Positions 22,015 to 29,734 of a stretch of DNA of 63,483 nt are shown here, in pieces. The notes beneath the pieces were generated by a model. That model saw only the letters and a program-made list of their open reading frames with translations, searched no databases and was not told the origin of the DNA. The stretch's first letter is position 1; each line of letters opens with the position of its first letter. Origin of the DNA: Clostridiales bacterium (lineage in GTDB: Bacteria > Bacillota > Clostridia > Lachnospirales > Lachnospiraceae); contig JAJQCD010000029.1 in NCBI GenBank assembly GCA_021202925.1, positions 1-63,483 on the forward strand, given 5' to 3'. Both the position numbers and the translations under genes were made by a program.

Positions 22015-22062
22015 ACAATGACTCAGAGAGAAATCATTCTGATTTCTTCTCTGAGTCATTGT
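22015..22062 (-). terminator. Hairpin terminator overlapping the end of loaP
   Basis: A 15-bp perfect stem (22015-22029 with 22048-22062) continues after a small internal loop into six more pairs (AAATCA/TGATTT). It includes the last codons of the loaP-type gene. On the minus strand it is followed by TGTTTATC, a weak U-rich tail. Confidence 0.65.
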
Positions 22063-22585
22063 CAGCGGTTTTGGCCGGAAGCTTCTGTGTGACTTCCAGC
22101 CCCATCTCAATCCCAATCTTCATGCCTCCGAACATCTCCACTTCCACACGGGCAATCCGCTTGTGGCGGTCAATAAACCGCACCAGCCCTTCCTTGCCCT
22201 TGAGCGGACCGGAGCGAACGATCAGTTTGTCTCCGACGAGAATCCCTTCGGACAATCCAGCTACATGTTCCTCATCCGTAAAGCCCTGGATAAAACAGAC
22301 CTCTTCCTCCGTGAGTGGAACCGGAGTCTTGTCAGTACCAAGAATCTTCGTCAGTTTCGGAACCTGATAAAATTTCTCATACAGTTCCTCAATCCGATTT
22401 GTAATGGCAAAAATATATCCAGGAAACATCGGAGCCATGATCTTGTGCCATTCTCCCCGGAAATGCCGGTTGGTGGCGATCTGTGGACAGAACATATCTT
22501 CCAGACATTCCTGCCCGATCAACTCCCGGCAAAGAAAAATTGTCTCTTTCTCCTGCCCGGTTGTCACCTGCATGGCATACCACAT
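22034..22585 (-). CDS. loaP: NusG-family antitermination factor, LoaP-like
   Basis: About 183 residues. The N-terminal NGN domain (2-100: MWYAMQVTTGQEKETIF, MFPGYIFAIT) and a KOW domain near 120-155 (GDKLIVRSGPLKGKEGLV) are clear. LoaP proteins are specialised NusG paralogs of Firmicutes and allies that let RNA polymerase read through terminators in long polysaccharide or antibiotic operons. The ATG at 22585 has AAGGGGGAAAAGCACG upstream; an in-frame ATG at 22648 has no good site. It has its own consensus promoter. No long biosynthetic operon lies next to it here, so it is an orphan in this window. Confidence 0.88.
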   Translation of the reverse strand: MWYAMQVTTGQEKETIFLCRELIGQECLEDMFCPQIATNRHFRGEWHKIMAPMFPGYIFAITNRIEELYEKFYQVPKLTKILGTDKTPVPLTEEEVCFIQGFTDEEHVAGLSEGILVGDKLIVRSGPLKGKEGLVRFIDRHKRIARVEVEMFGGMKIGIEMGLEVTQKLPAKTADNDSEKKSE

Positions 22586-22707
22586 CGTGCTTTTCCCCCT
22601 TATCTCTCGTTCGCCGTCGTTTCGTATCCATCCAAACAACCGCTTCATCCGGACGGTTCCCAGGCCGCATCACCCTGACCCTGGTACTGCCTTCCGGAAT
22701 CGTTTAC

Positions 22708-22736
22708 ACATTATCATCTGAAAGGAACTCTGTCAA
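22708..22736 (-). promoter_or_regulatory. Consensus promoter of the loaP-type gene
   Basis: On the minus strand a perfect TTGACA (22731-22736) is followed after 17 bases by TAATGT (22708-22713). The -35 box lies inside the last codons of the interrupted permease gene, so the promoter predates the mobile element and is not supplied by it. Confidence 0.85.
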
Positions 22737-22835
22737 GCGTTTGTCCGATAAACGTAACGACACGATACAACGCAGCCGAAATCAGGCAAAGAATCACAAT
22801 ACTCATCATAACCATATCCAGCTTAAAGACCTGAC
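22714..22835 (-). pseudogene. 3' fragment of the interrupted ABC permease gene
   Basis: The minus strand encodes (QV)FKLDMVMMSIVILCLISAAL... to a stop, which is the final membrane helix and tail of an SsuC/TauC-type permease. It has no start of its own. Joined at the 10-bp core to the fragment at 28959-29668 it gives one uninterrupted frame (GGC AGT CAG GTC TTT AAG CTG GAT). The junction falls within a Val-Phe pair. A longer open frame (to 22989) runs on into the mobile element and its terminator and is not a gene. Confidence 0.92.
22826..22835. repeat. Left attachment core
   Basis: AAGACCTGAC, identical to 28959-28968. It marks the crossover region of the recombinase; bases to its left are permease coding sequence, bases to its right are element. 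Confidence 0.88.
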
Positions 22836-22840
22836 GATGC

Positions 22841-22861
22841 AAAATGATACGTTTAATATCG
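22841..22861. repeat. Left terminal inverted repeat of the element
   Basis: AAAATGATA-CGTTTA-ATATCG. Its inverse counterpart at 28925-28945 has the same outer 15 bases around a different 6-base centre. It lies 5 bases inside the core and is a probable recombinase binding arm. Confidence 0.8.
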
Positions 22862-22919
22862 TGGTCAGCTTTTCTATGTACCCATTCTACCACAATCATC
22901 GTCTTTTTACTATCTGCAA

Positions 22920-22965
22920 AAATCAAAAAAGAGAGGAAGAGACAAGAGTATGTCTGTTCCTCTCT
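22920..22965 (-). terminator. Intrinsic terminator of the recombinase gene
   Basis: Directly after the recombinase stop, AGAGAGGAA-AGACA pairs with TGTCT-TTCCTCTCT (one internal mismatch, 6-base loop), followed on the minus strand by a TTTTTTG run. It keeps recombinase transcription inside the element. Confidence 0.88.
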
Positions 22966-22966
22966 G

Positions 22967-24778
22967 CTATCCATCATCGGATCCCTCATGTACTACCCAC
23001 TCACCATGTCCTCCACGCCCGACAAAAGAGAGGACTCCCTTTTGCTTTAGCTGTCGAATTCTTGCATGAATCGCCGATACGCTGACCTGTTCTTTCTGTG
23101 CAATCATTTTCGCAGTGATGTGTGGATTTTCCTTCATATACTGTACGATTCGCTCCCGCTCAGCTTCTTTTCTTCCTTCATAGAAGAATTCTTTATTTAA
23201 AGCGACCTCGAACCCCGGAACCGGATCCGACTGCAACGTAATCACCAGTTTCGTCCTGTATACTTCAATCTGCGTGATACTCTCCACCATATCTGCCACA
23301 GTTACCTGTTTCACCAGATTTGTTTCCAATCGCTTGCGGATCCATTGCAACCGTTGCTCAACAAGTGCCTGTGCCTCCTGGCTGTCCTGAATCGCCTCCT
23401 TTTTCTTCGTCCATTCATTAATTTTATCTGTCAACTCCTGGTTTCGCTTCCTGTAGTCCGAATCAGAAATCACCTCTGCCAGAAGCTTATCCAGCAGTTT
23501 CCTGCGTTGTTGCTCGTATTTATCAATGCTTCGCTGGAGTCGCTTTCCCTCTGACGCGCTGTTGCCCTGACTCAGCACTTCCTCAATCAGAGCAATCGCC
23601 CGATTCACAATCGCCTGATCATCTGCTACAGAATCCTGATCATACTGCCCGGCTGCTTTCTCCAGCACCTGATACAACTGCTCTTCATTCAGATGAACAT
23701 TGTCGCATCCGCTGCCCGGACTGATCTTTACAGTACGAACAGAATCTCGCTTTTTATCCTTCTCGTTTCTTCCATATTGTAAATAACGCTGACATTTCCA
23801 TTCGATAATGGTCTTTTTATCCTTATATGTTCTACGCCTGGTCCGATAGTAAGGACTTTTACAGATACCACACCGAATCTTACCCGACAGCTGATATCTG
23901 CCAGAATGGATGCCTTGCGGATATAATTCATTGGCCTTGCTGCTGGATGCTCTTCGATCTACCGCTGCGTTCGCTTCTCTCCATTCCTCTTCGGATACGG
24001 CAGCCGGAACCGCGTTCCGATGTACAATCCACTCGCTTTCCGGCATGATAATGGTCTTTTTCGTCTGAAAATCAAAATGCTTTCGATTTTGTACCACCAT
24101 CCCACAACGAATCGGATTGCGTATAATCCGGCGGACAGCCTGTGCCTGGATCGGCTTTCCATTGCGATCGTGAAACCCGTTCTCCTCCAGATAGTGTGCG
24201 ATCGAGTTGCAGCCCATATCCCTGCTGAGACAGAAGATGACCCGAATCGCCTCCATCTCCTCTTCGACCGGCACGAAGGTTCCGGTCTCATCCTTTTTCA
24301 GGCCAAAGGTCAGGGGCGGCAGGAGAAAATTCCTGCCGTCCTTCTGCCGATGGTGATGGGCATTGTTAATCTTTTTGGAAAGCTCCTTGCTGAACTCCTC
24401 GGCCAGAATCGCCTTGATCCCGGTAATCAGCGCATCGTCAGCGGAGTAGAACTTATGTTCCAGATACAGATAAAGGCGTTTCCCATTCGATACCAGCCGG
24501 TCGATGAACAGATACCAGTCCTTCGTGTTGCGCATCAGCCGGTCCTGTGATTTTACCTGAACAATGTCAAACTGATCCGTTGTCAGATCAGCAAACAGAC
24601 GGTTGTACTCTCCACGCTTTTCTGTAGTCGTACCGCTCCTGGCCTCGATATACTCGCCGACCAGGAACCAGCCCTGTTGTTCCACGCTCTGTCTGGACTC
24701 AGTCACCTGTTGCTGGAGCGCATTCTGCTGCGCCTCTTCCTCGGTGCTGCAACGACAGTAAATAACCGCGCGAAGCAT
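22967..24778 (-). CDS. Large serine recombinase (site-specific integrase)
   Basis: 603 residues. The catalytic resolvase domain spans 3-145 with nucleophile Ser11 (YCRCS). Further motifs are QVKSQDRLMRNTKDWYLFID and an E-helix region. A recombinase domain (155-265) and a zinc-ribbon with CGICKSPY and a later CQRY follow, then a long coiled coil (about 400-460). The C-terminus carries an extra helix-turn-helix (KENPHITAKMIAQKEQVSVS). Such enzymes integrate and excise elements between short non-identical att sites, as seen around this element. It is coupled to the 37-codon gene upstream and ended by an intrinsic terminator. Confidence 0.96.
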   Translation of the reverse strand: MLRAVIYCRCSTEEEAQQNALQQQVTESRQSVEQQGWFLVGEYIEARSGTTTEKRGEYNRLFADLTTDQFDIVQVKSQDRLMRNTKDWYLFIDRLVSNGKRLYLYLEHKFYSADDALITGIKAILAEEFSKELSKKINNAHHHRQKDGRNFLLPPLTFGLKKDETGTFVPVEEEMEAIRVIFCLSRDMGCNSIAHYLEENGFHDRNGKPIQAQAVRRIIRNPIRCGMVVQNRKHFDFQTKKTIIMPESEWIVHRNAVPAAVSEEEWREANAAVDRRASSSKANELYPQGIHSGRYQLSGKIRCGICKSPYYRTRRRTYKDKKTIIEWKCQRYLQYGRNEKDKKRDSVRTVKISPGSGCDNVHLNEEQLYQVLEKAAGQYDQDSVADDQAIVNRAIALIEEVLSQGNSASEGKRLQRSIDKYEQQRRKLLDKLLAEVISDSDYRKRNQELTDKINEWTKKKEAIQDSQEAQALVEQRLQWIRKRLETNLVKQVTVADMVESITQIEVYRTKLVITLQSDPVPGFEVALNKEFFYEGRKEAERERIVQYMKENPHITAKMIAQKEQVSVSAIHARIRQLKQKGVLSFVGRGGHGEWVVHEGSDDG

Positions 24779-24891
24779 CAGGTCTTCTCCTGACGGATAC
24801 GTTCAAGCAGACAACGCTCTTCCTCTGGCGTCAGCAGATTCTCCTCCCTCAGGATTCTGACAAGCCGGATTATTATCATATCTTCACTCAT
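24778..24891 (-). CDS. 37-residue helical protein coupled to the recombinase
   Basis: The protein reads MSEDMIIIRLVRILREEN then LLTPEEERCLLERIRQEKT. A strong ribosome binding site (CAGGAGGG) precedes it. Its stop and the recombinase start share a base (TGATG), so translation is coupled. The pattern of a helix, a turn with LLTPEEE, and a second helix resembles SHOCT-type short domains, which often occur at protein ends or as small companions of mobile-element proteins. It may help or direct the recombinase, for example as an excision factor, but that is inference. Confidence 0.72.
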   Translation of the reverse strand: MSEDMIIIRLVRILREENLLTPEEERCLLERIRQEKT

Positions 24892-25058
24892 ATGCCATTT
24901 CCCTCCTGTTTCACAGCCTCTTTTTCATCCTCCTGTCAGAGTATGCTGATAAAGATTGTCCTGTTCCGCTTCAAAAGGATTCTGCTTCGCTGATGGCAAG
25001 TCCGTCCGGCTTCACCCGTGATACCTTGGTAAATTTCCCATAAACAGTCAAAAACTGG

Positions 25059-25087
25059 TTGCTTTTATCGGTTTAACGTGCTAAACT
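25059..25087 (+). promoter_or_regulatory. Promoter of the element's cargo operon
   Basis: TTGCTT (25059-25064) and TAAACT (25082-25087) are separated by 17 bases, 75 bases before the dehydrogenase start. Just upstream, AACAGT-CAAA-AACTGGTT forms a partial dyad and ACTGTT recurs at the -10, so a regulator may bind. The rest of the divergent gap (24892-25162) shows no further gene. Confidence 0.6.
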
Positions 25088-25162
25088 GTTCAGGTGAGTA
25101 CGCCTGCCGCCAATGGAAGCGCAATTCAGGATACGGCAGGCCAGAACAATAAGGAGCTAAAA

Positions 25163-26029
25163 ATGAAAAACCAAATCACGGGACACACAGAACTGTTAAC
25201 TCTGATGGCGTATCCGATCCGGCACTCAAGCTCACCGGCCATGCAAAACGAGGCCCTGAGCTATCTCGGACTGGACTACGCCTATCTTTGTTTTGACGTC
25301 GATCAGAACAATCTGCCGCAGGCAATTGATGCGATGCGCACACTGAACGTGCGAGGCGGCAACATCTCCATGCCGAACAAAATCGCAGTCATGCAGTATC
25401 TCGACCGGCTGACGCCGGAAGCCGAGCTCTGCGGAGCCGTCAACACGATCGTCAACGACGACGGTGTGCTGACCGGCCATATCACGGACGGGATCGGATA
25501 CATACGGGGGCTTGCGGATCACGGCTTCGATATCCGGGGAAAGAAGATGACGATCGTGGGCGCGGGCGGTGCGGCAAAGGCCATCCAGGTGCAGGCAGCG
25601 CTCTCGGGCGTAAGGGAGATATCGATTTTCAATATCCATGACCAACACTGGACGCGTGCACAGGAGACAACCGCTCTCCTGAATGGACAGCTGAACTGCC
25701 GGGCGACACTCTATGATCTGGAGAATCTGGACGCATTGAAACGGGAAATCTACGACAGTGACCTGTTTGCCAACGCGACCGGCGTGGGAATGGCGTCACA
25801 GAAGGAGTGGACCTACATACCCGATCCGGGCTATTTCAAACCAGGTATGCTCGTGACGGATGTCATCTATTCGCCTCCCAAAACCCTGTTTCTCAGGATG
25901 GCGGAAGAGGCCGGCTGCGATACGATGAACGGGTTTCCGATGATGTTATTTCAGGGGGCGGAAGCGTTCCGGTTGTGGACCGGACAGGACATGCCCATTG
26001 AACATATGAAGGAATTTCTTAAAATCTGA
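25163..26029 (+). CDS. aroE: Quinate/shikimate dehydrogenase, AroE/YdiB family
   Basis: About 288 residues, the length of YdiB. The substrate domain has YPIRHSSSPAMQNEAL and SMPNK (catalytic Lys); TDGIG holds the catalytic Asp; the cofactor domain has VGAGGAAKAI; the tail has FQGAEAFRLWTG. It interconverts shikimate (or quinate) and the dehydro form with NAD(P). It resembles YdiB more than biosynthetic AroE and is placed with a TRAP importer, so a catabolic role is likely. AAGGAGCTAAAA fixes the start at 25163 rather than the open-frame start at 25094. First gene of the element's cargo. Confidence 0.92.
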   Translation: MKNQITGHTELLTLMAYPIRHSSSPAMQNEALSYLGLDYAYLCFDVDQNNLPQAIDAMRTLNVRGGNISMPNKIAVMQYLDRLTPEAELCGAVNTIVNDDGVLTGHITDGIGYIRGLADHGFDIRGKKMTIVGAGGAAKAIQVQAALSGVREISIFNIHDQHWTRAQETTALLNGQLNCRATLYDLENLDALKREIYDSDLFANATGVGMASQKEWTYIPDPGYFKPGMLVTDVIYSPPKTLFLRMAEEAGCDTMNGFPMMLFQGAEAFRLWTGQDMPIEHMKEFLKI

Positions 26030-26052
26030 CGAAAGATGGGAGAAAAAATGAA

Positions 26053-26538
26053 ATGAAACTATTGAAATGGATCGATGATAATCTGGAGGAAACGCTCCTG
26101 ATCCTGCTTCTGGTCTGCATGGTGATCATCATGGGCATTCAGATCTTCGCACGGTATGTTCTCAACCAGTCCTTAAGCTGGTCAGAAGAATTGACGCAAT
26201 ATCTTTTTGTATGGGCAACCTTCTTAAGCGTCAGCTATTGTGTAAAAAAACGCATTTCCATCAAGATTGAACAGGTGATAAACAGCCTGTCCGACCCGGG
26301 AAAGACCCTGTTGCGGCTGCTGCGCCATACCCTGGTGCTCGCGTTCTGCATCATTATGCTGCCATTCTGCTATACCTATGTGAAGCAGGCCGTCAGTCTG
26401 GGCGCAACGAGCGCGGCTCTTAAGATACCGATGTACTATATCCAGTCCGCTCCGCTCGTTGGATTTCTGCTGCTGACTGTTCGTGTCATTCAGGCATGGA
26501 TCCGCGAAGCAAAAACAATGAGGAGGTTTCTGCCATGA
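26053..26538 (+). CDS. dctQ: TRAP transporter small membrane subunit (DctQ)
   Basis: 161 residues with four predicted membrane helices (near 13-35, 50-70, 90-112 and 130-150). The family signature FARYVLNQSLSWSEELTQYLFVW is clear. It pairs with DctM to form the membrane part of a sodium-driven importer of organic acids. Its start lies 23 bases after the dehydrogenase, and its stop overlaps the dctM start by ATGA. Confidence 0.94.
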   Translation: MKLLKWIDDNLEETLLILLLVCMVIIMGIQIFARYVLNQSLSWSEELTQYLFVWATFLSVSYCVKKRISIKIEQVINSLSDPGKTLLRLLRHTLVLAFCIIMLPFCYTYVKQAVSLGATSAALKIPMYYIQSAPLVGFLLLTVRVIQAWIREAKTMRRFLP

Positions 26539-27821
26539 CAGCACTGATCATGATTTTATTTGTCGTCCTGCTGGTGCTGGCTGTACCGGTCGGTCTGACG
26601 GTTGCTATCACAAGCATGATGCCAAGCCTGTTTTCGGAATCCTTCACCGTCAGCGGCGTCTATGTGTTGCGTGCGATGCTCGGCGGTGTGAATTCCTATC
26701 CGCTTCTCGCAATCCCGATGTTCGTCCTCTCCGGCGTCATCATGTCAAAGGGCGGCGTTTCCAAAAAACTGTTTGAGGTGTTCACTTATTTTATTGGCAG
26801 ATACACCGCCGGCATCCCATGCGCGGTCGTGATTACCTGCCTGTTTTTCGGCGCAATCTCCGGATCCGCTCCGGCAACGGTGGCGGCAGTCGGCAGCATG
26901 ACGATCCCACTGATGCTCGAGATGGGGTACGATAAAAAGTTCAGCGTCGCGCTCGTTGCAACGGCAGGCGGCCTCGGCGTCATCATTCCGCCGAGCATTC
27001 CCTTCATCCTCTACGCACAGGCGACAGGGACCTCGGTGAGCGATATGTTTCTCGCCGGTATCATCCCGGGAATCATGATCGGCCTGATTCTCATGGGTTA
27101 CGCGTTTCACTACTGCCGGAAAAACGGAGAAGACCGTCAGAAAATCGATGTGATTGTCAATGAACTGCACGGACGTGGTTTCCGGAAGGTATTCTTTGAC
27201 AGTCTGTTCGCTCTGCTGACGCCCGTGATCATCCTCGGCTGCATTTATACCGGTGTGACAAGTCCGACGGAGGCCGCAGTCATCTCGGTGTTTTATTCGC
27301 TGATCATCAGCTTGTTTGTCTACCGAAGCCTGAAGTGGAAGGATCTGTGGAAAATTTTCGGGGAAGCGGTGCGCACCTACTGCCCGATCCTGTTCATCCT
27401 GGCAGCATCGGTTGCCTTCTCCCGCATCCTGACACTGATGCATGTACCGCAGACGGTGTCTGCATGGATGACAAGCTCCTTTACGAACCGGATCAGCCTG
27501 CTGCTCATCATCAATCTGCTGCTGCTCGTCGTCGGCATGGTCATGGATACAAGTCCGGCCATTCTGATCCTCGCGCCGATCCTGCTGCCAATCGTCGAAA
27601 TCTACGGCGTGGACCCGGTACAATTTGGTATCATCATGGTGGTCAACCTGGCAATCGGCTTTGTCACACCGCCGATCGGCGTCAATCTCTTTGTCGCGAG
27701 CTCGCTCTCAAAAGTGCCGGTCATGGAGATCGCCAGAAAGGCGCTGCCGATGATCGTGTTGTTCTTTGTCGCACTGCTGCTGATCACATATATTCCACAG
27801 ATCAGCCTGCTGCTGGTATAG
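26535..27821 (+). CDS. dctM: TRAP transporter large membrane subunit (DctM)
   Basis: About 428 residues with a dozen or so hydrophobic segments. Typical DctM stretches are FFGAISGSAPATVAAVGSM, GGLGVIIPPSIPFILY, TSPTEAAVISVFYS and GFVTPPIGVNLFVAS. It forms the ion-coupled transport channel. The ATG at 26535 overlaps the dctQ stop (ATGA) and follows GAGGAGG; an open frame from 26496 is not used. Confidence 0.96.
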   Translation: MTALIMILFVVLLVLAVPVGLTVAITSMMPSLFSESFTVSGVYVLRAMLGGVNSYPLLAIPMFVLSGVIMSKGGVSKKLFEVFTYFIGRYTAGIPCAVVITCLFFGAISGSAPATVAAVGSMTIPLMLEMGYDKKFSVALVATAGGLGVIIPPSIPFILYAQATGTSVSDMFLAGIIPGIMIGLILMGYAFHYCRKNGEDRQKIDVIVNELHGRGFRKVFFDSLFALLTPVIILGCIYTGVTSPTEAAVISVFYSLIISLFVYRSLKWKDLWKIFGEAVRTYCPILFILAASVAFSRILTLMHVPQTVSAWMTSSFTNRISLLLIINLLLLVVGMVMDTSPAILILAPILLPIVEIYGVDPVQFGIIMVVNLAIGFVTPPIGVNLFVASSLSKVPVMEIARKALPMIVLFFVALLLITYIPQISLLLV

Positions 27822-27831
27822 GGAGGGAAAG

Positions 27832-28833
27832 ATGATGAAAAAGAAAATATCACTCTGCCTGATCGGGCTCATGGCCACCTTCGCAGTCCTGTCTCTCACC
27901 GGCTGCCATGAGAGTACGCAGACTTACGCCTGGGTTCTCGGAACGGCCAGTCCGGAGGACACCGTCACGCAGATCTACGCGGAAACCTTTGCAGAGGAAG
28001 TCGAACGTCTCTCAGACGGCGCAATGCGCATCGAGGTTTACGCAAACAGTTCACTCGGCGGCGATACGGAACTGATCGAATGCTGCATGACCGGCGACAT
28101 CCCGTTCGTTGTACAGAACACGGCCCCGCAGGTCAGCTATCTGCCCAAACTCTGCCTTTTCGATCTGCCGTGTGTATTCAGCGATATCGAGGAGCTGCAC
28201 AGGGTGCTTGACCAGGAAGCATTCATGGAGAAGATCAATGAAATCTACGCGGAAAAGGGACTCGAACTGCTCGGTATGAGCGACCAGAACTTCCGCGTCA
28301 TGAGCTCCAACGTCAGGGTCGAAGACCTGAATAATTTTTCCGGTATCAAGATCCGCACCATGGAAAACTCCTATCACATGGCATTCTGGAAGGCAATCGG
28401 CGCGAACCCCACGCCAATGTCATTCTCAGAAGTCTACATTGGCCTGCAGCAGAACACGATCGACGCGCAGGAGAATCCCTACGAGGTCATCGTTTCAAAC
28501 CGGTTCTACGAACAACAGGATTATGTGATCCAGACGAATCACCTGCCACATCTTCTGAGTCTCATCGTAAGCGAAGATTTTATGGACGGCCTGTCCGGGG
28601 AACAACAGAAAATCATCCGCGAGGCCGCGGCCACAGCCTGCGCCTATGCGCGCGAACAGGCACAGGAACGCGTGGATAACCGCATCGCGATCTGCGAAGA
28701 TGCCGGAACAACGATTGTTGAAGTCTCCGACGAACTGGTCTCAGAAATGCGCGCAGCATCCGCTGACCTCTACGAGGAAATCCGGAATGCAGTCGGAGAC
28801 GATGAATTATACAGGATGTATACGGGTAAATAA
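27832..28833 (+). CDS. dctP: TRAP transporter substrate-binding lipoprotein (DctP)
   Basis: 333 residues. A lipoprotein signal peptide ends in LSLTGC near residue 24, as expected for an extracytoplasmic binding protein in a Gram-positive. The DctP fold is shown by FAEEVERLSDGAMRIEVYAN, GIKIRTMENSYHM and GLQQNTIDAQENPYEV; the Arg of the KIRTM segment normally binds the substrate carboxylate. GGGAGGGAAAG precedes two adjacent ATG codons. With a shikimate/quinate dehydrogenase in the same operon, a cyclic carboxylic acid such as shikimate or quinate is the likeliest ligand. Confidence 0.94.
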   Translation: MMKKKISLCLIGLMATFAVLSLTGCHESTQTYAWVLGTASPEDTVTQIYAETFAEEVERLSDGAMRIEVYANSSLGGDTELIECCMTGDIPFVVQNTAPQVSYLPKLCLFDLPCVFSDIEELHRVLDQEAFMEKINEIYAEKGLELLGMSDQNFRVMSSNVRVEDLNNFSGIKIRTMENSYHMAFWKAIGANPTPMSFSEVYIGLQQNTIDAQENPYEVIVSNRFYEQQDYVIQTNHLPHLLSLIVSEDFMDGLSGEQQKIIREAAATACAYAREQAQERVDNRIAICEDAGTTIVEVSDELVSEMRAASADLYEEIRNAVGDDELYRMYTGK

Positions 28834-28862
28834 AAACCACCTGCTGCCCATCATACGAAAAA

Positions 28863-28895
28863 GGATCGCTGCGATATGCGGCGATCCCATTTTTT
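28863..28895 (+). terminator. Intrinsic terminator of the cargo operon
   Basis: GGATCGCTGC pairs with GCGGCGATCC (one G-U pair, 5-base loop), followed by CATTTTTT. It lies 30 bases after dctP and inside the element, so cargo transcripts should not enter the antisense permease fragment. Confidence 0.88.
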
Positions 28896-28924
28896 ACGCT
28901 TTCATTTTCTCTTTCATAATCCAA

Positions 28925-28945
28925 CGATATCTTTTTTATCATTTT
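28925..28945. repeat. Right terminal inverted repeat of the element
   Basis: CGATAT-CTTTTT-TATCATTTT, the inverse of AAAATGATA-N6-ATATCG at 22841-22861. It lies 13 bases inside the right core, against 5 bases on the left. Confidence 0.8.
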
Positions 28946-28958
28946 ACCTCTTCACTGC

Positions 28959-28968
28959 AAGACCTGAC
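28959..28968. repeat. Right attachment core
   Basis: AAGACCTGAC, identical to 22826-22835. To its right the permease coding sequence resumes (minus strand ...GYLIIYGSQV). Confidence 0.88.
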
Positions 28969-29668
28969 TGCCATAAATAATCAGATAACCCAGCCCCCGG
29001 TCGGCTGCCAGAAATTCACCTATGATCACGCCGACCAGACACAGACCGACATTTACCTTCATATTACTGACAATCAGGGGCAGTGAGCCGGGAAGCAGAA
29101 CTTTCGTCAGTACATCCATCTTCGTCCCACCCAGCGAACGAATCAGCCGCACCTGATCCGGATCCATCGCAGAAAAGCCGGTGTAAAGAGTCATAACAGA
29201 ACCAAAGACAGCAACGGACACCGCTGTCACTACGATTGTCCGCACATGTGTCCCCAGCCACACAATCAGCATTGGCGCCAACGCAGACTTGGGAAGCGAA
29301 TTGAGAAGCACAAGATACGGTTCCAGAACCTCCGCCACTCCACGGCTTGCCCACAACACCAGTGCAATGGCAATCCCGGCCAGCGTTACAATCAGAAAAC
29401 TGAACACGGTTTCCAGCAGAGTGACGCCGATGTGGCCGAAAATACTGCCGTCAGTCGCCATGCTCCAAAAACAGAGAATGACGCCGGACGGGGAACTGAA
29501 AATGAAATCGTCCACGATCCCAAGCCTCACACTCAACTCCCAGACTGCCAGCAGCAATACCAGCAGCATCACACGGCAGACTGCTGTACTTCTTCTGTGA
29601 AAACGTTCCCTTTCCATATATTCCATCTGAAACCGTTCCGATATCGTCTGGTTTTCCTGTTTCATCAT
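28959..29668 (-). pseudogene. 5' fragment of the interrupted ABC permease gene (SsuC/TauC type)
   Basis: Encodes the first 236 residues of an inner-membrane permease of the nitrate/sulfonate/taurine-type ABC family: several membrane helices and the EAA loop (RLIRSLGGTKMDVLTKVLLP). The frame then enters the element and stops after two foreign codons (28952). The missing last helix and tail are at 22714-22835; together they make 273 residues, a normal length. No ATPase or binding-protein gene lies nearby on either side, so it was already separated from usual partners or uses remote ones. The truncated protein probably does not function. Confidence 0.92.
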
Positions 29669-29734
29669 GGTCCCCCAAATTGTGCATATACCTTATAGTA
29701 TGCGGACGGGGAAACGCGGTTCGCGTGTCCATTC

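Follow-up and report, generated by a model that had tools for sequence, protein, structure and literature searches.

An ATP-binding cassette (ABC) permease gene in a Lachnospiraceae genome deposited as Clostridiales bacterium (assembly GCA_021202925.1) is interrupted by an element that carries a large serine recombinase (LSR). The stretch analysed, referred to here as the window, comprises 63,483 nucleotides of contig JAJQCD010000029.1 (positions 1 to 63,483, forward strand). The gene is SsuC-like and lies on the minus strand. Its N-terminal part, 236 codons at 28959..29668 (supported by the call of an open reading frame (ORF), by BPD_transp_1, PF00528, and by homologues), belongs to an ORF at 28952-29668 that reads ...IIYGSQV and then LQ before a stop at 28952; its SsuC/SaoP-like match lies under the cut-off. 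The C-terminal part, 37 codons and a stop (FKLDMVMMSIVILC...) at 22714..22827 on the same strand, was recognised by ORF reading and by its conservation in intact homologues, and starts at the Phe codon. The element is inserted between Val and Phe of GSQV|F and measures 6,133 bp from crossover to crossover. Joining at this codon boundary keeps the reading frame: the joined flanks form a single in-frame permease of 273 codons plus stop, and precise removal of the element would, as computed from the sequence, restore the intact gene. This bears out an initial annotation of the locus, which had proposed a 273-codon permease split by a serine-recombinase element of 6.1 kb, exactly 6,133 bp; both fragments and both junctions are found where it had placed them. 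In searches of the same genome at E<=0.001, the two fragments are the only permease matches and the recombinase is present in one copy.

The junctions are marked by a 10-bp direct repeat, AAGACCTGAC, present in exactly two copies in the window: one at the 3′ junction (22826-22835, crossover AA/TT at 22826-22827), the other at the 5′ junction (28959-28968, crossover AA/TT at 28959-28960). In 100 shuffles of the sequence the mean was 0.06 copies, and one shuffle reached two. The shared core of the initial annotation is real as a 10-bp identity in the window, but the conserved core is shorter: the TT at the start of the Phe codon (AA on the plus strand) is the only sequence common to every junction pair printed. 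When the two element ends are combined, they form an attachment (att) site, attP, that is palindromic around this TT. Over 22+22 bp, complementarity is 67% at the TT and 21-31% at 16 shifted centres (n=43 elements), with inner arms TATCA and TGATA and GATAT-like outer arms. Individual elements match 7 to 19 of 22 pairs, with L187, L150 and L166 the weakest; the window element matches 16, its arms lying at 22828..22867 next to the 3′ junction and at 28919..28958 next to the 5′ junction. A corresponding palindrome in attB was sought and is absent, complementarity at the centre being 24%. The element carries a site-specific recombinase of its own, and att sites that match it.

The recombinase, 603 amino acids encoded at 22967..24778 on the minus strand, adjoins the 3′ part of the split gene and is in line with it. 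It contains the Resolvase, Recombinase and zinc-ribbon domains (Pfam) and the catalytic Ser that define a large serine recombinase. Arg9, Ser11 and the four zinc-ribbon Cys residues are kept in all 43 elements aligned. A winged helix-turn-helix, also detected with Pfam, occupies residues 541-583 at the C terminus, after the zinc ribbon and a linker. Directly upstream lies an ORF of 37 amino acids (24778..24891, minus strand), whose stop overlaps the LSR start. A profile built from 24 members of this family (about 40 amino acids, threshold E<=1e-3) finds it before 81 of 99 LSRs, before 80 of the 88 with LSR identity of at least 38%, and never on the reverse strand; its stop overlaps the LSR start in 33 of the 81. 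No Pfam model matches it at or above the curated cut-off. Because known directionality factors are, as far as described, mostly small and mutually unlike (PMC5025042), the 37-amino-acid protein was chosen as a candidate directionality or helper factor.

Insertion at this codon is recurrent. Among 24 genomes of the genus searched with the joined permease, 17 have the gene in one piece, without insert, and seven have it cut after residue 236 by inserts of 3.95 to 33.9 kb; the uncut genes printed continue past the cut site with F-K/Q/R-L/M-D or a close variant, in keeping with the continuation proposed in the initial annotation. The same seven genomes, and no others, have an LSR relative at E<1e-130; the next-best relative (G022, 1e-70) accompanies an uncut permease. 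In a wider family sample of 397 genomes, 206 carry the permease (match at E<=1e-45), and about 20 of these are split as counted from the match ranges listed (G000, G080, G127, G128, G129, G134, G136, G141, G159, G185, G197, G216, G223, G275, G284, G294, G303, G368, G395 and G406); G041 was left unjudged as its match stops at a contig end, and G059 and G220 match only in part. In 19 of the 20 there is an LSR relative at E<=1e-60, the exception being G159, whose contig breaks off some 0.2 kb past the junction. Together with G141 and G294, where the recombinase is shortened, G159 accounts for the few split permeases without a full-length recombinase. Six of the 186 other carriers also have an LSR relative (G087, G145, G165, G286, G295 and G343). 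In five of them LSR identity is 33-42% in the match listed; G343 has the same contig positions as locus L191, where the recombinase is broken.

A scan of a one-genome-per-species collection, which was pattern-based and reaches close relatives only, yielded 71 loci with LSR relatives. A permease fragment was recognised by motif within the fetched stretch at 65 of these, including L191, where it lies beside a whole copy. At the six loci without such a fragment, a C fragment is present in another part of the genome in four cases; the remaining two are L186 and L188, with LSR identities of 39% and 35%. Carriers include named isolates, such as Faecalicatena orotica NLAE-zl-C242 and Dorea sp. D27, so that excision could be tested by polymerase chain reaction.

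The interrupted gene appears to be under sporulation control. In other genera an SsuB-like ATPase gene typically directly precedes the permease, and in this genus the permease stands alone. The motif CATANNNTA is found upstream of 96 of 109 ATPase genes (shuffle mean 8.1, maximum 16; reverse strand 21), compared with 71 of 763 control regions, which lie upstream of ORFs of at least 250 amino acids and were not filtered for ATPase or LSR genes. When these regions are aligned on CATANNNTA as the -10 element, an AC that was not selected for emerges at -18/-17, 16 bp before it (A 57%, C 65%). In Clostridioides difficile, sigma-K and sigma-E promoters are reported to have a common -10, with AC at -35 for sigma-K and ATA for sigma-E (PMC3789822). 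Within the genus, CATANNNTA occurs in 21 of 24 permease upstream regions of 300 bp, and AC precedes it by 16-18 bp in 12 of the 15 rows printed, which were chosen for having the motif. The predicted sigma-K-type promoter of the window's permease, AC-N16-CATACTATA, lies at 29694..29720 on the minus strand, as judged by motif match and group statistics. Across all 138 permease upstream regions the motif is found in 32 (shuffle mean 6.7, maximum 14; reverse strand 12), a modest count that is expected if most permeases are second genes of an operon.

The permease also tracks with a sporulation marker: 202 of the 206 permease carriers have spoIVA, compared with 55 of 191 other genomes (Fisher p=9e-55, uncorrected for kinship). 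The window's genome has spoIVA, and two good matches to a sigma-K model, the better one about 15 bits under a cut-off that the Bacillus subtilis control did not pass either. The permease is taken as a sporulation gene on account of this association and of its sigma-K-type promoter, and the host operon resembles one that is expressed late in the mother cell during sporulation. The permease and the SsuB-like ATPase are perhaps the counterparts of YtlD and YtlC: a published list of sigma-K genes includes ytlA, ytlC and ytlD (PMC3416734), and C. difficile ytlC is assigned to sigma-K (PMC3789822), as far as these sources report. For the C. difficile region CD1891 to CD1904, PMC3789822 lists under sigma-K a 'fragment of ABC-type transport system' and an ABC permease.

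A similar signal precedes the recombinase. Between -260 and -120 of the LSR, CATANNNTA is found at 31 of 88 loci (shuffle mean 4.2, maximum 11; reverse strand 7), and sigma-E-type patterns upstream of the LSR do not exceed their frequency on the reverse strand. In the window, a putative mother-cell-type promoter of the LSR operon, AC-N17-CATACTCTG, lies at 24937..24964 on the minus strand; this imperfect sequence match, with the group statistics, is suggestive, not decisive, as a sign of mother-cell expression.

We consider it probable that the element is a sporulation gene-intervening element of the skin/gin type, excised in the mother cell. The described elements skin, gin and yin share a common logic, in which excision in the mother cell restores the gene and the spore inherits the split copy (PMC5025042, PMC5595907, PMC10747680). 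Such a reading is favoured here by the sigma-K-type promoter, by the tracking with spoIVA and by purifying selection on the severed 3′ fragment (see below), and on the same evidence the likeness to skin in sigK drawn in the initial annotation is well supported. We infer excision, its timing, the cell type and a role for the small protein, and the steps would be as follows. The permease, with its SsuB-like ATPase, would be expressed late in the mother cell from the sigma-K-type promoter. During growth the element would keep the permease cut, and the gene would be inherited in this state. During sporulation the recombinase, perhaps together with the 37-amino-acid protein, would recombine the junctions at the TT in the mother cell, restoring the permease in frame and freeing the element in circular form, to disappear together with the mother cell. 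The forespore would retain the interrupted copy.

Excision restricted to the mother cell would be one-way, because that cell leaves no descendants, and the term reversible switch, originally applied to this locus, is probably wrong; no excised or circular form was seen. A population switch in growing cells, in which excision and reinsertion would let subpopulations express the permease, is highly improbable. Serine integrases are reported to integrate alone and to excise with a directionality factor (PMC5025042), and yin of Clostridium botulinum has been observed in cultures in integrated as well as in excised form (PMC10747680), but the target promoter here is of sigma-K type and the searches of the window's own genome gave only the split permease.

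Selection on the severed 3′ end was assessed by comparing 43 split with 49 intact genes, in pairs binned by the divergence of their N fragments; the genes were picked by a C-fragment motif, which favours conserved ones. The nonsynonymous difference of the C fragment is similar in all classes of pairs, with values in the 0.05-0.10 bin of 0.109 for split-split, 0.144 for split-intact and 0.121 for intact-intact pairs. The severed fragment appears to change about as slowly as the corresponding part of intact genes, which points to purifying selection without relaxation. A C-fragment profile was also run on 40 genomes, in which the locus was usually without a matching fragment pair. The fragment was found in 35, in frames of mostly 26-137 amino acids, and none of the matches listed contains an internal stop. 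Of the five genomes without it, four have the locus on a contig shorter than 10 kb, and in the fifth the LSR lies at a contig end.

In another reading, the two fragments would be translated apart and would then assemble, excision being unneeded. An in-frame ATG precedes the C fragment in 29 of 43 elements, often five codons upstream and within the att palindrome, and AlphaFold models of B. subtilis YtlCDA are reported to show one domain-swapped transmembrane helix (PMC11466899). Yet 11 of the 43 are without an in-frame start, among them L187 and G013 with a stop three and five codons upstream, and a Shine-Dalgarno-like string precedes the start in two of 43 (the window is one of these, 49-50 codons upstream), a weak test in that only 32 of 99 LSR starts have such a string. 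After these checks, separate translation of the 3′ fragment was set aside as barely credible.

The recombinase is as old as the host genes and constrained, to judge by its divergence between the window and genomes G006 and G008: synonymous differences (pS) are 0.73-0.75 and nonsynonymous differences (pN) 0.12 for the LSR, compared with 0.68 and 0.19-0.21 for the permease. Recent horizontal spread as the whole story was rejected on the saturation of these synonymous sites. LSR and permease similarities correlate (r=0.61, 0 of 2000 permutations), and in the group L132, L161, L164, L167, L169, L170, L176 and L180 the two diverge together while most of the cargo differs. There are exceptions elsewhere, such as L107 and L133, with 87% similarity in the permease and 52% in the LSR.

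These exceptions also fit a plainer alternative, a family of site-specific mobile elements for which a conserved but dispensable gene serves as safe harbour, with little cost from breaking the permease and no programmed excision, the severed end being conserved through young or often-replaced insertions. The wide variation in cargo and in recombinase orientation would be expected of such a family, as would the shortened or broken recombinases in G141, G294 and L191 and the irregular loci in G197, G425 (tandem or extra C fragments) and G216 (rearranged). We nevertheless regard it as unlikely. LSR synonymous sites are saturated with respect to the closest relatives while the protein has changed little, the severed fragment is unrelaxed and free of internal stops in the 35 of 40 genomes in which the search found it, and genes under sigma-K are among the known settings of programmed excision (PMC5595907, PMC5025042).

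Several observations weigh against programmed excision in the mother cell. Four of the 206 permease carriers have no spoIVA match, and the Fisher value for this association (about 1e-54) makes no correction for kinship. The CATANNNTA motif is found ahead of only 31 of the 88 LSRs in the interval given above, and the promoter match is imperfect in the window and also in its two closest relatives. A whole permease may be present in G422 (frame of 269 amino acids) and perhaps in G434 (216 amino acids), and G136 has a whole paralogue in addition to its split copy. In G141 and G294 the LSR is shortened and the C fragment is nevertheless conserved. On contig C126 of G216 (L109, L273) the N and C fragments lie on opposite strands, about 1.3 kb apart, so that simple excision could not rejoin the permease; this is either an inversion or an assembly error. 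The proposed reading accounts for G141, G294 and G216 only if the damage is of recent date or the contig is in error. L191 speaks instead for the proposed reading: a frameshifted LSR, in pieces, is found there together with a complete permease beside junction remnants. Two further loci (L270, L271) bear repeats: G197 has two C fragments on contig C73, and G425 has two and a partial third on contig C25, in each case in the same direction and kilobases apart, as if elements had been stacked at the site.

In contrast to the recombinase module, the cargo is highly variable. In the window it consists of a shikimate dehydrogenase gene (AroE, 25163..26029; Pfam and family-model matches) and the TRAP transporter genes for DctQ (26053..26538; Pfam match), DctM (26535..27821) and DctP (27832..28833; both with Pfam and family-model matches), all on the plus strand. 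Domain scans revealed no phage structural or conjugation genes among the genes of this element. Across 44 bounded elements with 309 ORFs of at least 60 amino acids, no ORF cluster other than that of the LSR occurs in every element (in L191 the LSR is in pieces), and 164 of the 309 ORFs are singletons. A Pfam scan of 122 cargo proteins of at least 200 amino acids, from which elements G013, G015 and L191 were excluded and for which two window starts were adjusted, found AAA-ATPase-like/PDDEXK_9 proteins, ABC transporters, AMP-binding enzymes and two-component regulators, as well as sodium symporters, pyruvate-type oxidoreductases and TRAP genes. AAA-ATPase-like/PDDEXK_9 is the commonest family, with 10 of the 122 proteins. 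A parallel NCBIfam scan was set aside as it gave mostly generic ABC ATPase models. One exception to the turnover of cargo is a five-gene set (clusters of 432, 205, 575, 516 and 554 amino acids) shared by L128, L165 and L172. The LSR has the same orientation as the permease in 13 elements, including all seven of the genus, and the opposite one in 30, the broken L191 being left apart; with a single insertion codon, both orientations imply that the module was turned or rebuilt while the codon stayed the same.

No phage or conjugation family appears among the 25 of 85 cargo Pfam families shown for these 122 proteins. The parallel with the comK prophage, also drawn in the initial annotation, fits less well, since the families shown include none from phages and since comK is a competence gene. 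Five LSR relatives on viral contigs (34-39% identity) are without a permease fragment, and the attP string of the window has no exact match in viral contigs; on these grounds a viral origin was set aside. In the proposed mechanism the recombinase module would be the constant, selected part, and the cargo a passenger replaced many times. More tentatively, the elements may form a family-wide set of non-viral cassettes that are kept in the germline and cut in the soma: a long-resident recombinase module in one sigma-K transporter gene would be excised only in the doomed mother cell and serve as a fixed dock for swapped cargo, sporulation selecting for the recombinase and hence for the cargo site. 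This wider proposal is possible, and we hold it with less confidence than excision in the mother cell as such.

The staphylococcal cassette chromosome inserts at the end of a gene, which still works, whereas insertion here breaks the gene. The two are alike, as far as described, in combining a serine recombinase with exchangeable cargo at one chromosomal site, and in forming composites (PMC5595907). Among the closest systems is gin in gerE of Bacillus cereus ATCC10987 (PMC5595907), which, like the present elements on the reading proposed here, is reported as non-phage, with a serine recombinase and an extra factor, a late mother-cell gene as its target and an att inverted repeat with a central dinucleotide. 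In contrast, gin as described spans 28.6 kb, has three recombinases, targets one transcription factor gene and is known from few strains; the elements described here have one recombinase, are mostly smaller, occupy an ABC permease gene in many genera and change their cargo. The skin element in sigK of C. difficile (PMC5025042) resembles that of the window in that its LSR adjoins the 3′ part of the gene and is in line with it; its small directionality factor and mother-cell excision are reported there and only proposed here. It differs in its target gene, its prophage-like genes, its constitutive recombinase and a directionality factor encoded apart from the recombinase. Like the present elements on the proposed reading, yin in yabG of C. 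botulinum sits inside a sigma-K gene, and a putative SigK promoter is described before its candidate directionality factor; it is, however, prophage-like and reported in a single isolate (PMC10747680).

The kind of element is already known; the target gene, the compact design with one recombinase, the replaced cargo and the breadth of occurrence are not described in the literature found. Among the titles and abstracts listed in searches of open-licence PMC articles, no report of an element in this transporter gene was found (subscription journals and preprints lie outside this scope), and the word 'permease' was not found in PMC10083194. Known sporulation-intervening elements are a small set, many of them phage-derived. 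If the proposed reading is true, the permease insertions add a large natural series, spanning many genera with one codon, one recombinase family and changing cargo, which would open to study the reasons for splitting spore genes, any benefit to the host and the way in which cargo is swapped. The series is also a source of many serine integrases for which att sites have been inferred.

Directly after the permease, at 22034-22648, the window contains a gene for a LoaP-type NusG antiterminator. In G007, where the permease is uncut, a LoaP-like gene that is 69.5% identical also lies to that side of it, about 3.4 kb off.

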